Below are positions 7,966 to 16,117 of a stretch of DNA of 64,000 nucleotides, in pieces. Each line of letters opens with the position of its first letter. The stretch's first letter is position 1. Location: the NCBI RefSeq assembly GCF_030817175.1, contig NZ_JAUSYY010000001.1, positions 3,100,001-3,164,000 of the forward strand, written 5' to 3'. The notes beneath the pieces are model-generated. The model saw only the letters and a program-made list of their open reading frames with translations. It was not told the DNA's origin and made no database searches. A program made the translations under genes and the position numbers. The DNA is from Agromyces ramosus (lineage in GTDB: Bacteria; Actinomycetota; Actinomycetes; Actinomycetales; Microbacteriaceae).

Positions 7966-9339
7966 TCAGGCGTCGAGGTCGACGTCCTTCGTCTCCTTCG
8001 AGAGGAGCAGCGCGATGAGGGTCAGCACCGCCATCGCCGAGAGGTAGACGCCGACCCAGAACGGACTGCCGCCTCCCGACTGCCAGAGGGCGACGGCGAT
8101 GAACGGGGCCACCGCCGCGCCGAGGATCGATGACACGTTGTACGAGATGCCGGAGCCCGTGTAGCGGACGTTCGTCGGGAACAGTTCGGGCAGGAGCGCC
8201 CCCATGGGGCCGAAGGTCATGCCCATGAGCGAGAAGCCGACGACGAGCCACAGCATGACACCCCAGAAGCCGGCGCCGAGCAGCGGCACCCAGAGGAGGC
8301 CGAACACGATGATGCCGAGAGTCACCAGGATGAGCGTCTTGCGCCGGCCCCACCGGTCGGCCCAGGGGCCGGAGAGCAGCGTGAAGATGCCGAAGAACAC
8401 GACACCGCCGATGAGCATGAGGACGAAGGTGTTGTACGAGTAGCCGAGGCCGGGCAGCGCGCCCTCGGTTGACTCGACCGGCGCGCGTCCGTAGCTCAGC
8501 GAGAACGTGGTCATCAGGTAGAAGAGCACGTAGGTCGCCAGCATGAAGAAGGTGCCGAGGATGAGCTGCTTCCAGTAGTTCTTGAAGACGCTCGCGAGCG
8601 GCAGCTTCGTGAGCCTGCCCTCCTTCGACGCCTTGGAGAACGTCGTCGACTCGACGAGCCGGAGGCGCACCCACAGGCCGACGATCACCATGACCGCCGA
8701 GAACAGGAACGGGATGCGCCAGCCCCAGTCGAGGAACGCCTGCGACGGCATGGTCGGGTCGTCCGACGGCAGCGCGGCGGCGATGACGAGGAACAGGCCG
8801 TTGGCGATGATGAAGCCGATCGGGGCGCCGAGTTGCGGGAACGTGCCGTACCAGGCGCGCTTGCCCTTCGGGGCGTTCTCGGTCGCGACGAGTGCCGCGC
8901 CCGACCACTCGCCGCCGAGCGCGAATCCCTGCGCGATGCGCAGGATGACGAGCAGCAGCGGTGCGAGCCAGCCGACGACGGCGTAGGTCGGCAGCAGGCC
9001 GATGAGGAAGGTCGCGATGCCCATGGTGAGGAGGGCGCCGACGAGGGTGGCCTTCCGGCCGTGCTTGTCGCCGAGGTGGCCGAAGATGACCGCGCCGAGC
9101 GGGCGGGCGACCATCGCGGCACCGAAGACGGCGAACGACGAGAGCAGTGCCGTGGTCGGGTCACCGGTCGGGAAGAACAGGTGCGGGAAGACGAGCACCG
9201 CGGCCGTCGCGTAGACGTAGAAGTCGTAGAACTCGATCGTCGTGCCGACGAGGCTCGCGAGCACGACGCGGCTGCGTGGATTCGCCGGGGCGGGGACAGG
9301 GGATGCGGCGGCCGTGGCCGCCGTGGTGGATGAGGACAT
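7966..9339 (-). CDS. MFS transporter, metabolite:H+ symporter (MHS) family
   Basis: A 457-residue, twelve-helix major facilitator of the MHS group (ShiA/ProP/KgtP type). It has the loop 2-3 signature (FGHLGDKHGRKATL, about residues 79-92), a repeat of it between helices 8 and 9 (GPWADRWGRRKTL), and the MHS-typical start of helix 1 (GTTIEFYDFYVYATAA). Proton-coupled import of an organic acid, osmolyte or amino acid is expected; the substrate is unknown. The ATG at 9339 is preferred although the ribosome binding site is poor. An in-frame ATG at about 9402 would add a short, non-conserved leader. It is divergent from the iron-boxed fusion gene, and the iron box lies about 170 bases upstream. Confidence 0.9.
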   Translation of the reverse strand: MSSSTTAATAAASPVPAPANPRSRVVLASLVGTTIEFYDFYVYATAAVLVFPHLFFPTGDPTTALLSSFAVFGAAMVARPLGAVIFGHLGDKHGRKATLVGALLTMGIATFLIGLLPTYAVVGWLAPLLLVILRIAQGFALGGEWSGAALVATENAPKGKRAWYGTFPQLGAPIGFIIANGLFLVIAAALPSDDPTMPSQAFLDWGWRIPFLFSAVMVIVGLWVRLRLVESTTFSKASKEGRLTKLPLASVFKNYWKQLILGTFFMLATYVLFYLMTTFSLSYGRAPVESTEGALPGLGYSYNTFVLMLIGGVVFFGIFTLLSGPWADRWGRRKTLILVTLGIIVFGLLWVPLLGAGFWGVMLWLVVGFSLMGMTFGPMGALLPELFPTNVRYTGSGISYNVSSILGAAVAPFIAVALWQSGGGSPFWVGVYLSAMAVLTLIALLLSKETKDVDLDA

Positions 9340-9509: not shown

Positions 9510-9528
9510 TGAGGTTAGACTTACCTAA
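9510..9528 (+). promoter_or_regulatory. DtxR/IdeR-type iron box
   Basis: The 19 bases match the IdeR/DtxR consensus (TTAGGTTAGGCTAACCTAA) at 16 of 19 positions, including both GGTTAG and ACCTAA half-site cores. The box lies 32 bases before the GTG start of the fusion gene and in the divergent region shared with the MHS transporter. Repression by a DtxR-family regulator under iron-replete conditions is the expected effect. Confidence 0.75.
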
Positions 9529-9559
9529 CTTCCCACTCGTTCGACGATCGGCTTCACGC

Positions 9560-12160
9560 GTGCGCGAAACCGCGACCTTCCCCACGCCAGGCGGCACCCT
9601 CGACCTGCTCGGTGGCGACCCAGCCACGCCGGCGCTCGTCACCGCCGACGGCATCGTCGACTACGCGGAGCTCCGCGAGCGCGTCCGCTCGCGTGCGGCG
9701 CAGCTGGGCCCGGAACGCCGGCTCGTGATGATCCATGCCGCCAATGCGATCGAACCGCTCGTCACCTACCTCGCCGCACTCGAGGGCGGCCATGTCGTGC
9801 TCCTCGTCTCAGGCGATGACGACGCCGCCGCGACCCGGCACCGCGACCAGTTCCTCGAACGCCACGACCCCGACGTCGTGTTCAGGGCGGGCGATCACGG
9901 CTGGCTGCTCGATGAGCGGCGCGACGGGACTCGCCACGAGCTGCACCCCGACCTCGCGATGCTCGCCAGCACGTCCGGCTCCACCGGCTCACCGAAGCTC
10001 GTGCGACTCTCGCACGCGAACCTCCTGAGCAACGCGGCGAGCATCGCCGACTACCTCCGCATCGGGCCCGACGACCGCGCCGCGACGACGCTGCCGATGC
10101 ACTACTGCTACGGGCTCTCCGTCGTGAACAGCCACCTGCTCTCCGGCGGGTCGCTGCTGCTCACCGAGCGATCGGTCATCGAGCCGGCGTTCTGGGCCGA
10201 CTTCCGCGACGCCGGCGCCACGTCGTTCGCGGGCGTCCCGTACACGTTCGACCTCCTCGACGGCACGGACTTCGCCGCACGCACGCCGCCGACCCTGCGC
10301 TACGTCACCCAGGCCGGCGGCCGCCTCGGCGCCGATCGCGTCGAGCGCTACGCCCGGCTCGGCCGGGAGCGAGGGTTCGACGTCGTCGTCATGTACGGCC
10401 AGACCGAGGCCACGGCGCGCATGGCCTACCTGCCGCCGGACCTCGCCGAGACCCACCCCGGCTCGATCGGCATCCCGATTCCCGGCGGGGCGTTCCGGAT
10501 CGACGGCGACCCCGTCGGCGAGCTCGTCTACGAGGGCCCGAACGTGATGTTGGGCTACGCAGAGGGCCCGGAGGACTTCGCCGACGGGGCCACGATCGAC
10601 GAACTGCGCACCGGCGACCTGGCTCGCCTCACCGACTCAGGACTCTACGAGATCGTCGGCCGGGTGAGTCGCTTCGTGAAGGTGTTCGGCCTGCGCATCG
10701 ACCTCGACCGAATCGAGGGCTTCCTCCTCGAGGGCGGCATCGAGGGGCGCGCGATCAGCCACGACGAGCGCCTGACGGTCTTCGTCCTGCACGATCGCGA
10801 CGTGGCCGCGACCGCACAGCTCATCGCCGACCGCACCGGGCTTCCTGCCCACGTCGTCCGCGTGCACCCGATCGCCGAGTTCCCCCGCACCTCGAGCGGC
10901 AAGCCCGACCAGGCGGCGCTCGCCCGGCACGTCGAGCTCCTCGAGCGGCGCGAGGCGGAGCGACAGGCCGTGTCCGCCGCCACCGACGGCGCCACCGACG
11001 GGGCGGCGCCGATGCACGACCGTATTCGCGACCTCTACGCCGAGCTCCTGGGGCGGCCCGACACGACCCTCGACGACAGCTTCGTCGCCCTCGACGGCGA
11101 CTCGCTCAGCTACGTCGAGGTGTCCCTGCAACTCGGTCGCCTGCTCGGCACGCTGCCGGCCGACTGGCCCGGCCGCAGCATCCGCGAGCTCGCCGGCGAA
11201 CAGCAGAGCCGCCCGCCGGCCGCCGCGACGCTGCGTCGGCGCTGGGTTCCGCGAGTGCGCCAGGTCGAGACCTCCGTCGTGCTTCGCACCCTCGCGATCG
11301 TGCTCATCGTGGCGACGCACGCCGACCTCATCGCCCTGAAGGGCGGGGCGCACCTGCTGCTCGCCGTCGCGGGCTTCAATCTCGCGCGGTTCAGGCTCGC
11401 GGATGTCCCGCGCCGGGCCCGGCTCGGAGGCCTGCTGCGCAGCGTCACCCAGCTCCTCGTGCCCGCCGTGCTGTGGATCGGGGGCGTCGCCCTCATCGCC
11501 GGCACGTACGACCCGGCCACAGTGCTCCTCATGAACAACGTGGTCTCCGACGACACGGGCTGGACCGAGCAGTGGCACTTCTGGTTCCTCGAAGCGATCG
11601 TCTGGTCGATCGTGGGAGTCGCCGTGCTGCTCCTCGTGCCGGTGTTCGACCGGCTCGAGCGTCGTCGCGGGTTCGCGGTCGCCCTCGCGCTCGTCGCCGC
11701 GACGCTCACCCTGCGCTACGTCGTCGCTGGCGGGATCGTCGCGTCGTCGCCGACGCGGTACGCGATCCCCGGCGTGCTCTGGCTGATCGCGATCGGCTGG
11801 CTCATCGCACGTGCGACGACGACGACGCAGCGCCTCCTGGCCACGGCGATCGTGCTCGCGACGGTGCCCGGGTTCTTCGACGACCCTGCGCGCGAGGCGC
11901 TCATCGTGGTCGGCCTCGTGCTGCTGACCTGGGTCCGGTCGCTGCCGGTGCCGGCCGTGCTCGCCGGACTGGTCGGTGCGATCGCCTCGGCGTCGATGTT
12001 CGTGTACCTCACGCACTGGCAGGTGTACCCGCCCATCGAGGAGGTCTCGCCCGCCCTCGCGGTGGTGGCCTCGTTCGCGGTCGGCCTCCTCGTGTGGCGC
12101 GGCTACGGAACGCTCAGCCGCTCGCTCACCCGTTCGATCAGCGCCAGGCGACCGCGATGA
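9560..12160 (+). CDS. adenylation / carrier / membrane acyltransferase fusion
   Basis: An 866-residue, three-part protein. Residues about 10-460 are an AMP-forming acid-CoA ligase/adenylation domain: P-loop STSGSTGSPK (about 137), YGQTEATAR (about 278), TGD (about 351), and the catalytic Lys in SSGKPD (about 446). Residues about 475-555 are a phosphopantetheine carrier with the attachment Ser in ALDGDSLS (about 514). Residues about 575-860 hold about eight to ten membrane helices beginning RTLAIVLIVATHAD, the Arg/His signature of the acyltransferase-3 (OafA/WecH) family. The logic is that an acid is activated, loaded on the carrier and transferred at the membrane. The GTG at 9560 follows an iron box by 32 bases. 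The in-frame ATG at 9509 overlaps the box and is less likely. The product is unknown; an iron-limited surface or siderophore acylation is an inference. Confidence 0.85.
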   Translation: MRETATFPTPGGTLDLLGGDPATPALVTADGIVDYAELRERVRSRAAQLGPERRLVMIHAANAIEPLVTYLAALEGGHVVLLVSGDDDAAATRHRDQFLERHDPDVVFRAGDHGWLLDERRDGTRHELHPDLAMLASTSGSTGSPKLVRLSHANLLSNAASIADYLRIGPDDRAATTLPMHYCYGLSVVNSHLLSGGSLLLTERSVIEPAFWADFRDAGATSFAGVPYTFDLLDGTDFAARTPPTLRYVTQAGGRLGADRVERYARLGRERGFDVVVMYGQTEATARMAYLPPDLAETHPGSIGIPIPGGAFRIDGDPVGELVYEGPNVMLGYAEGPEDFADGATIDELRTGDLARLTDSGLYEIVGRVSRFVKVFGLRIDLDRIEGFLLEGGIEGRAISHDERLTVFVLHDRDVAATAQLIADRTGLPAHVVRVHPIAEFPRTSSGKPDQAALARHVELLERREAERQAVSAATDGATDGAAPMHDRIRDLYAELLGRPDTTLDDSFVALDGDSLSYVEVSLQLGRLLGTLPADWPGRSIRELAGEQQSRPPAAATLRRRWVPRVRQVETSVVLRTLAIVLIVATHADLIALKGGAHLLLAVAGFNLARFRLADVPRRARLGGLLRSVTQLLVPAVLWIGGVALIAGTYDPATVLLMNNVVSDDTGWTEQWHFWFLEAIVWSIVGVAVLLLVPVFDRLERRRGFAVALALVAATLTLRYVVAGGIVASSPTRYAIPGVLWLIAIGWLIARATTTTQRLLATAIVLATVPGFFDDPAREALIVVGLVLLTWVRSLPVPAVLAGLVGAIASASMFVYLTHWQVYPPIEEVSPALAVVASFAVGLLVWRGYGTLSRSLTRSISARRPR

Positions 12161-12592: not shown

Positions 12593-13062
12593 TCAGGCCG
12601 CGCCGAGCGACTGCAGTGCCCGCACCGTCGCGATCGCGGCCTCGGCCGCCTCGCGCCCCTTGTCCTCCTTCGACCCGGGGAGCCCGGCCCGATCGAGTCC
12701 CTGCTTCTCGTCGTCGAGCGTGAGCACGCCGAAGCCGACGGGTCGGCCGGTGTCGAGTGCGACGCGCGTGAGCCCGTCGGTGGCCGCCGCCGAGACGTAC
12801 TCGAAGTGCGGCGTGCCGCCGCGGATGATCACGCCGAGCGCGACGACCGCGTCGGCACCCTCATCGAGAGCGGCCTTCGCGACGACCGGGAGCTCGAAGC
12901 TGCCGGGCACCCGCACGAGCGAGAAGTCGGCGCCGGATGCCTCGAGCGTGCGGGTCGCTCCGGCGATGAGCCCGTTCGTGATCTCATCGTGCCAGCTTCC
13001 GGCGACGATCACGATCGTGAGTCCCGTGCCGTCGACGTCGAGCTCGGGGGATCCTGCTCCGC

Positions 13063-13066
<4 letters not shown>
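12593..13066 (-). CDS. ribH: lumazine synthase (RibH)
   Basis: 6,7-dimethyl-8-ribityllumazine synthase, 157 residues. It joins 5-amino-6-ribitylaminouracil with dihydroxybutanone phosphate in the penultimate step of riboflavin synthesis. Family motifs include [13 protein letters not shown] (about 52-64), [18 protein letters not shown] with the catalytic His (about 78-95), and [14 protein letters not shown] (about 109-122). The ATG overlaps the ribBA stop (ATGA), so translation is coupled. It is the last gene of the operon and is followed by a palindromic terminator. Confidence 0.97.
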
Positions 13067-14360
<1,294 letters not shown>

Positions 14361-14364
<4 letters not shown>

Positions 14365-15056
14365 GCGGCACCCCCGCTCGTGGACTCGGCGCGTTCGGCT
14401 GCCCACAGCGCGGGCGTCGCGACCCCGGCGACGGATGACGGGAGCGTACGGTGCGCGTCGAAGCGGAGCATCCGCTCGACCTGCCTCGCAAGGATGTCGG
14501 TCTCGATGTTCACGACGTCGCCGACCGCGCGCGCGCCGAGGGTGGTCGCCGTGAGCGTCTCGGGGATCAGCGAGACCTCGAACCAGGAGCCGTCGGGCTC
14601 GTCGCCCACGGCACTCACGGTGAGCGAGACGCCGTCGACCGCGATCGAGCCCTTGTCGACCACGAGCGGTGCGTGGGCGGTGTCGAGCGAGAAGCGGATG
14701 ACCCGCCACGCCTCGCCCGGGCGGATCTCGAGCACTCGGGCCGTGCCGTCGATGTGGCCCTGCACGATGTGCCCGCCGATGCGGTCGCCGACCCGTGCGG
14801 CGCGCTCGAGGTTCACGGCGAGGCCGTCGCGCGCCGCCGCGAGCGTCGACATCGCGAGCGTCTGCGCCATGACGTCGGCGGTGAACGACGCGCCGTCGAA
14901 GTCGACGATCGTGAGGCAGACGCCGGAGACGGCGATCGAGTCGCCGTGCTTCGCCCCCTCGACCGCGAGCGGTCCTCGTACGGTGAGCCGGGCGGCGTCG
15001 CCGGTGCGCTCGATGCGCGTGACGGTGCCGAGCTCCTCGATGATTCCGGTGAACAT
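14361..15056 (-). CDS. ribE: riboflavin synthase alpha chain
   Basis: Riboflavin synthase, 231 residues, dismutates two lumazine molecules to riboflavin. It begins MFTGIIEELGTV, the hallmark N-terminus, and contains two lumazine-binding repeats (about residues 1-95 and 98-195), each with a GDSIAVSGVCLTI-like or GSIAVDGVSLTV segment. The C-terminal tail, about 30 residues rich in Ala and Arg, is longer than usual. The start is 1 base after the ribD stop, with GGAAGGGAA as ribosome binding site. It overlaps ribBA by 4 bases. Confidence 0.97.
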
Positions 15057-15057
15057 G

Positions 15058-16117
15058 TCAGTTCCCTTCCGTGGGCTTGGGGTGGGCGACGAGCAGGAGG
15101 TCGTCGCCGAGCCGTTCGATGACGGCGAAGTCGTAGCGGAGTGCCGCGTCGATCGACTCGATGCCGAGGTCGCCGAGTGCGAGCCGCGGGCCGCCGAGCA
15201 GCACGGGCGCGACGTAGACGAGGAGTTCGTCGGCGAGCCCGGCGGCGATGAACGCGCTCGCGAGCGTGGGGCCGCCTTCGACGAAGAGCGAGCGGATGCC
15301 GCGGTGCGCCAGCTCTGCGAGGTCGGCGGCGAGATCGACGCCCTCGAAGAACATCGGGGCGTGCGGATGCCGCGTGACGGCCGCATCGGACGGCACGGGG
15401 CGGCGACCGAAGACCACGGGCACCGGTTGCGCGTCGAAGAACTGTCCGCCGGGTGCCCGGGCGGTGAGGGCGGGATCGTCGGCGAGCACGGTGCCCGTGC
15501 CCACGGCGATCGCCTCGGCGGCCGAGCGCCTGCGGTGCACGTCGGCGCGAGCTTCGGGACCGGTGATCCACTGGCTCGTGCCGTCGGCCGCCGCCGCGCG
15601 ACCGTCGAGGCTCGACGCCCATTTCACGATGATGCGCGGTCGGCGGTGCCCGGCCGCGAACAGCCAATCGTCGAGGAAGACGCTCACCTCGTCGGCGAGT
15701 ACCCCACCGGTCACCTCGACGCCCGCGGCCCGCAAGCGATCGCCCCCGCCGGCGGAATGGTCGCCGGGGTCGGCGACGGCGTAGACGACGCGGCCGATGC
15801 CGGCGTCGATGAGGGCCACGGCGCACGGACCGGTTCGCCCGACGTGGTTGCACGGCTCGAGGGTGACCACCGCGGTGGCGCCCTCGGCTGCGCCGGGTGC
15901 GAGCTTCGAGAGCGCGTCGACCTCGGCGTGGGCGGTGCCGGCGCCGCGGTGCCAGCCTTCGGCGAGCAGCTCACCATGGGGTGAGAGGATGACGCAGCCG
16001 ACGCGCGGGGTTCACGCCGCGAGCGGGGCCGCGTTCGGCGAGCTCGAGCGCGCGGCGCATCGCCGTGGCATCCGCCATCGTGTGCTCACCGCGCTCAGTG
16101 TGCCCCGCCGTGCTCAT
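15058..16117 (-). pseudogene. ribD: ribD with +1 frameshift
   Basis: Bifunctional diaminohydroxyphosphoribosylaminopyrimidine deaminase / uracil reductase. The N-terminal frame (from ATG 16117 or 16078) reads MRRALELAERGPARGVNP and then shifts at a run of four G on the plus strand (16007-16010). With one base of that run removed, it continues as RVGCVILSPHGELLAEGW, then AHAEVDAL and LEPCNHVGRTGPC (zinc deaminase site), into the reductase half (RIIVKWASSLDGRAA). As given, the first frame stops after about 22 further non-homologous codons. The downstream frame is intact to 15058. It would cost the cell riboflavin synthesis if real, so a sequence error is at least as likely. The FMN riboswitch lies just upstream. 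Confidence 0.9.

Follow-up and report, generated by a model that had tools for sequence, protein, structure and literature searches.

What does a bacterium gain from a single protein that appears able to activate an acid, hold it on a phosphopantetheine arm and pass it to a membrane acyltransferase, encoded behind an iron box? This question is raised by a gene of Agromyces ramosus whose product joins an adenylate-forming ligase, a carrier and an acyltransferase-3 (AT3) domain, and which we analysed within a 64,000-nt window (positions 3100001–3164000 of a 4.01-Mb one-contig genome). We give an even chance to the reading that this ligase–carrier–AT3 fusion works as an iron-repressed acyl relay within one chain, in the service of an FbpABC ferric-iron importer and along the lines of the Dlt D-alanylation relay. 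Comparative analysis demonstrated the elements from which this reading is built, namely three intact domains, conserved motifs, a conserved box and a partnership with FbpABC.

An earlier, sequence-only reading of this DNA had placed adenylation, carrier and AT3 domains in a single protein, and Pfam matches over cut-off bore this out: an AMP-forming ligase (PF00501, 144.2 bits), a phosphopantetheine carrier (PF00550, 26.5 bits, cut-off 20.8) and an AT3 domain (PF01757, 50.7 bits, cut-off 31) were found in one 866-aa chain (Table 1). The fusion is a conserved family with full-length homologues, the closest named ones being mostly from Agromyces and Microbacterium, and its members are variously called ‘AMP-binding protein’, ‘acyl-coenzyme A synthetase’, ‘AMP-dependent synthetase’ and ‘non-ribosomal peptide synthetase’ in the databases. 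At E ≤ 1e-90 it had a match in 16 of 396 actinobacterial genomes, A. ramosus included, one of the 16 being ligase-only (L137/L152). The search for the same three-domain order in related genomes, which the sequence-only reading had called for, recovered the fusion at 52 actinobacterial loci, 30 and 22 from separate homologue searches; these counts leave out the alphaproteobacterial L063, the ligase-only L152, whose contig is that of L087, and L154, which lies on the contig of L043. Residue counts rest on 44 fusion rows, made up of P0001 plus 43 loci at which an open reading frame of >780 aa was called, and the partial ligase loci L083, L084, L088, L095 and L110 were excluded from the ligase comparison. 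Two Nocardioides proteins of ~490 aa (P0177, P0208) have carrier and AT3 with no annotated ligase domain, and may reflect split genes or separate ligases. The sequence-only reading knew of no described pathway that fits, and the top matches of our targeted searches of the open-licence literature likewise gave no account of such a fusion or of an FbpABC-tied acyltransferase.

The box TGAGGTTAGACTTACCTAA ends 31 bp ahead of the GTG start of the fusion, and our score for it (16/19) equals the one on which it had been called a near-consensus DtxR/IdeR site. It has one mismatch to the degenerate pattern TTAGGNNAGNCTNNCCTAA and is one of two such sites in the genome. Allowing up to three mismatches, this pattern occurs at 10 places genome-wide versus 35 for a reversed-pattern control, and a genome scan with a second degenerate pattern did not include the window’s box among its matches. 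Because the count lies below its control and the second pattern misses the site, counting alone proves nothing and we relied on conservation. Calling a box at ≥14/19 within 250 bp upstream or 60 bp inside the extrapolated start, we found one at the fusion in 37 of the 52 loci, and in six more (L050, L052, L064, L065, L143, L145) an operon running from fbpABC into the fusion has such a box before fbpA. Of 3180 random 310-bp windows drawn from these loci, 52 scored at least 14, true sites included. No box of ≥14/19 was found at L055, L140, L144, L146, L149, L151 or L159, the last of which has a poorly placed start and a box at its fbpA, and L042 and L148 had no upstream sequence in which to score one. 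Absence of the box from orthologues, named beforehand as an outcome that would speak against the idea, was thus not the rule. The genome of A. ramosus has two DtxR-family genes over cut-off, and a conserved, consensus-like operator together with an encoded repressor of this family fits membership in a DtxR/IdeR regulon, from which we infer iron repression. In two genomes outside the window’s class that have fusion and FbpABC (L150, L151), the DtxR-like box is borderline or missing, and iron control may differ there. The other near-perfect box of the A. ramosus genome precedes a FecE-like, siderophore-type ATP-binding cassette (ABC) ATPase gene (L116:5024-5925, genome 3285023 on; below family cut-offs), with an amidase gene on its other side.

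Neighbour clustering, and searches with proteins of the A. ramosus genome itself, showed that FbpA and FbpB adjoin the fusion in 28 of the 52 loci. The arrangement is convergent in 16 of these, fbpABC leads into the fusion in nine, the fusion leads into fbpABC in two and one is divergent, and fbpA is itself boxed (≥14) in 23 of the 28. Outside close relatives, the Fbp genes alone recurred widely beside the fusion in the clustering. In A. ramosus, fbpABC lies apart from the fusion, at 649210–652814 (L115), with its own box at 649146. The earlier description of the fusion as self-contained, without siderophore genes nearby, therefore holds within the window and misleads beyond it. Among 249 genomes of the family, with the fusion called at E below 1e-80 (10 genomes) and FbpA at E ≤ 1e-15 (57 genomes), FbpA was present in 10/10 genomes with the fusion versus 47/239 without it (Fisher p 2e-7), and at genus level in 8/8 versus 20/77 (p 6e-5; phylogeny uncorrected). 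FbpA of A. ramosus gave matches to ferric-binding proteins of solved structure (best E 7e-74) and, with its lipobox-like LAAC, looks like a lipoprotein; it also contains an HYYW stretch, and paired tyrosines act as iron ligands in ferric-binding proteins. Its operon also gave matches to a permease (PF00528) and an FbpC-like ATPase, and in L054 the ATPase has PF00005 and TOBE. By its FbpA match, permease and ATPase, the partner operon is a predicted ferric-iron ABC importer of the FbpABC kind, like SfuABC and HitABC; we know of no ligand-making enzyme that is part of these systems.

How might the fusion handle an acyl group? Its carrier keeps the attachment serine, Ser515, in 44/44 fusion rows, this residue is also invariant in alignment A1, and the genome has one phosphopantetheinyl transferase match. 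The catalytic R-X10-H of the AT3 domain was likewise present in 44/44 fusions. A model of the domain has the ten-helix HGSNAT/GWT1-like fold, as judged by a second structure aligner that matched HGSNAT and GWT1; Foldseek gave no match below E 0.001, and at the sequence level the AT3 piece had no match among solved structures. Loss of the catalytic His or of the AT3 fold, also named in advance as a finding against the idea, was accordingly not seen. A protein search with the AT3 piece returned 107 matches, many of them carrier-bearing and many on short contigs.

The fusions part from other AT3 proteins in the RXXR motif on the cytoplasmic side of helix 3, which occurs in 1/44 fusions versus 23/27 other AT3 proteins of relatives. 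These controls come from 30 loci of the 53 AT3 matches listed, 28 of which gave sequence (not L176, L177), with L170 left out as mis-extracted; their R-X10-H is true by construction, as extraction required it. Since 4/27 controls also go without RXXR, the motif is highly rather than absolutely conserved and AT3 membership stands. The second Arg of RXXR (Arg74) was modelled touching the 3'-phosphate of coenzyme A (CoA) in OafB (PMC9833829), and loss of the motif, leaving a variant donor site, is as expected if the donor were the fused carrier. Compared with characterised AT3 acyltransferases such as OafB and OatA, the fusion thus shares the HGSNAT-like fold, R-X10-H and a Pfam score over cut-off, but is placed behind a ligase and carrier and has lost RXXR. 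A review of AT3 proteins (PMC9558356) favours acyl-CoA over acyl carrier protein (ACP) as donor; the terms iron, siderophore and phosphopantethein are absent from its main text.

The ligase domain may narrow the choice of acid. Lys448, Arg287, Met278 and Tyr182 are identical in 44/44 fusions and 29/29 relatives consisting of the adenylate-forming (A) domain only, and TQAGG and YGQTEA stretches are common to nearly all of both groups. Amino-acid-activating A domains bind the alpha-amino group with an acidic residue (Asp) of core A4. No Asp or Glu occurs at residues 181–188 in the 44 fusions, where Gly185 faces the Asp of LgrA in the alignment, and with no condensation domain in protein or genome the fusion is, by the tested features, not an amino-acid-activating module of a non-ribosomal peptide synthetase (NRPS). 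Arg287, which we take to occupy A-domain specificity position 331 (GrsA numbering), could bind a second carboxylate of the substrate. The fold matches were MatB (a malonyl-CoA ligase), oxalyl-CoA ligase, aryl ligases and NRPS A domains or amino-acid ligases, a span so wide that the fold does not fix the substrate. Taken together, the pocket residues suggest an acid that is small, not an alpha-amino acid, and probably di- or hydroxycarboxylic. Malate would be a candidate lead, if the acid is compared with that used to make tetronate under an O-antigen locus. PMC3441752 does no more than name a gene that tetronate synthesis requires.

Relatives of the ligase provide two comparisons. The domain has a distant profile match to AmcH (63 bits versus a family cut-off of 370), which likewise belongs to the ANL ligases and loads a carrier protein, but stands alone and feeds a polyketide-like pathway. 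Of seven acids tested, AmcH loads only 2-oxoglutarate on its ACP (PMC10698177); its family, NF058661, had no match in 296 genomes and none in the control genomes either. Among the A-only relatives (L085–L114) a cassette recurs in which genes for a small carrier and a FabG-like reductase precede the ligase, and LuxE and LuxC follow it. We confirmed LuxE in L085, L099, L102 and L103, LuxC in L085, L102 and L103, and the reductase in L103, and the carrier was over cut-off in two of four genes tested (L096, L109), with L099 just below and L087 giving none. Pocket residues are common to the cassette ligases and the fusion, whereas the cassettes have their carrier as a separate protein, no AT3 fusion, and LuxE and LuxC following the ligase. 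The same gene order occurs in Aeromonas flagellar glycosylation islands (PMC7874193). Some ligase cassettes are accompanied by glycosyltransferases (L093, L103).

We propose that low iron would free the box and allow expression of the fusion, whose ligase domain, with its motifs intact, would make the acyl-AMP of a small acid and load its own carrier at Ser515. The fold, R-X10-H and the loss of RXXR suggest that the carrier would then take the place of acyl-CoA, presenting its acyl-pantetheine at the cytoplasm-facing cavity of AT3, and that AT3 would acylate an acceptor on the outer side of the membrane. In the most speculative step, the acylated product, released or held at the surface, would bind or mobilise Fe(III) and feed the FbpA lipoprotein. 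Architecture and motifs lend support to the ‘load and transfer’ idea put forward at the outset; as far as sequence goes, each acceptor offered there, a surface glycan, a lipid or a secreted siderophore, is a candidate. In the Dlt relay, D-alanylation proceeds through a ligase, a carrier and a membrane acyltransferase (DltA–DltC–DltB). The likeness to the fusion, a ligase loading a carrier and a membrane acyltransferase passing the acid to an extracytoplasmic acceptor, is a functional analogy only: the fusion is one polypeptide, has an iron box and lacks the amino-binding Asp in its pocket, and its membrane domain is an HGSNAT-like PF01757 domain whereas DltB is an MBOAT protein. DltB served as the structurally distinct MBOAT control in PMC12423673. 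A narrower form of the proposal, which we put forward tentatively and as the less probable side of the question, is that the fusion alone makes a metallophore by joining a housekeeping di- or hydroxycarboxylic acid to an extracytoplasmic acceptor, giving an Fe(III) ligand for FbpABC.

The relay could instead remodel the envelope at low iron, acylating a cell-wall glycan or glycolipid to alter surface charge or permeability with an acyl group that binds no iron itself. The AT3 enzymes characterised so far mostly acylate extracytoplasmic sugars (PMC9558356), and glycosyltransferase and sugar genes are found near several of the A-only ligases most closely related to the fusion; with only Fbp genes recurring widely beside the fusion outside close relatives, the acceptor should then be a standing component of the cell. 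We consider remodelling unlikely, and prefer a relay serving FbpABC, because in the family sample the fusion occurs only in FbpA-bearing genomes and, outside close relatives, no other gene family recurred widely beside it, company that remodelling hardly explains in 10/10 genomes and 28/52 loci. That the enzyme finishes a siderophore, acylating one that is secreted or imported, or a precursor whose genes lie elsewhere in the genome, is improbable. The box at the fusion, the boxed FecE-like ATPase gene and an alphaproteobacterial fusion (L077) that sits after a TonB receptor gene would suit it, but neither IucA/IucC (PF04183) nor NRPS condensation domains (PF00668) were matched in the A. ramosus genome, with control genomes positive, and the recurrent partner is FbpABC in a comparison that included no systematic search for FecCD-type importers. 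Accidental company, in which an enzyme of lipid or sugar acylation is iron-repressed by chance and drifts with iron loci, would suit the solitary copy in the window and the 24/52 loci without adjacent FbpA and FbpB, yet four FbpABC arrangements and the complete co-occurrence make it very improbable. Least probable of all is acylation of the FbpA lipoprotein or its lipid anchor, which would account for adjacency, co-occurrence and the lipoprotein-like FbpA, but FbpA is present in 47/239 genomes without the fusion, and a protein acceptor (F-pilin) differs from the usual carbohydrate acceptors of the superfamily (PMC12423673).

Upstream of the fusion lies a divergent major facilitator superfamily (MFS) symporter gene, and the same family is directly upstream and divergent in three further Agromyces loci (L035, L036, L037) and was not seen in most other fusion loci. 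The box between the two genes could serve both, making the symporter a possible co-regulated partner. The riboflavin genes downstream of the fusion, on the opposite strand, are ordinary. Among alphaproteobacterial-type fusions, the one of Marinibacterium profundimaris (L077:7485-12460) comes after genes for a TonB-dependent receptor (heme/siderophore families, below cut-off) and for a peptide-type ABC transporter. A shared pathway beside fusions of this type was considered and rejected, as chosen genes of L063, L067–L070, L072–L078, L081 and L082 comprised mixed fatty-acid genes, MFS, SBF, sugar-nucleotide enzymes, integrases and a peroxidase instead; among these chosen neighbours the TonB receptor was seen only at L077, and we did not build on it.

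Table 1. Positions, in window coordinates, of the fusion gene, its box and motifs, and the adjoining genes.
Feature	Position	Strand	Details
DtxR/IdeR-type iron box TGAGGTTAGACTTACCTAA	9510..9528	.	16/19 to palindromic consensus
Ligase–carrier–AT3 fusion CDS (coding sequence)	9560..12160	+	866 aa, GTG start, stop included; full-length homologues
ANL-type adenylate-forming (A) domain	9620..10924	+	residues ~21-455; PF00501 match 21-333, end by homology
A10-type Lys448	10901-10903	+	ligase domain, with invariant Arg287
Phosphopantetheine carrier (PCP/ACP) domain	11018..11152	+	residues 487-531; PF00550
Attachment Ser515 in DGDSL	11102-11104	+	carrier domain
AT3 membrane domain	11279..12076	+	residues 574-839; PF01757
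R-X10-H of AT3	Arg576 11285-11287, His587 11318-11320	+	first membrane helix
Divergent MFS metabolite/H+ symporter (ShiA/ProP-like)	7966..9339	-	PF07690/PF00083; TIGR00883 431.8 bits, cut-off 443.45
Riboflavin biosynthesis genes	12593-15870	-	lumazine synthase, DHBP synthase/GTP cyclohydrolase II, lumazine-binding riboflavin synthase, RibD C-terminal domain

FbpABC-type importers are commonly regarded as importing iron with no siderophore that belongs to them. An acyl relay that is regulated and inherited together with such an importer suggests that, in some actinobacteria, FbpABC may have a dedicated ligand or surface group. If the fusion alone makes a metallophore, some FbpABC importers would have a dedicated ligand synthase that needs neither NRPS or NRPS-independent siderophore (NIS) enzymes nor an exporter, and its AT3 domain would draw the acyl group from a fused acyl-carrier domain, not from acyl-CoA. 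The fusion also provides a system in which to test whether a fused carrier arm feeds an AT3 domain, against the acyl-CoA donors favoured in the AT3 review (PMC9558356), and suggests a minimal, so far undescribed route by which a bacterium may be helped to collect iron.
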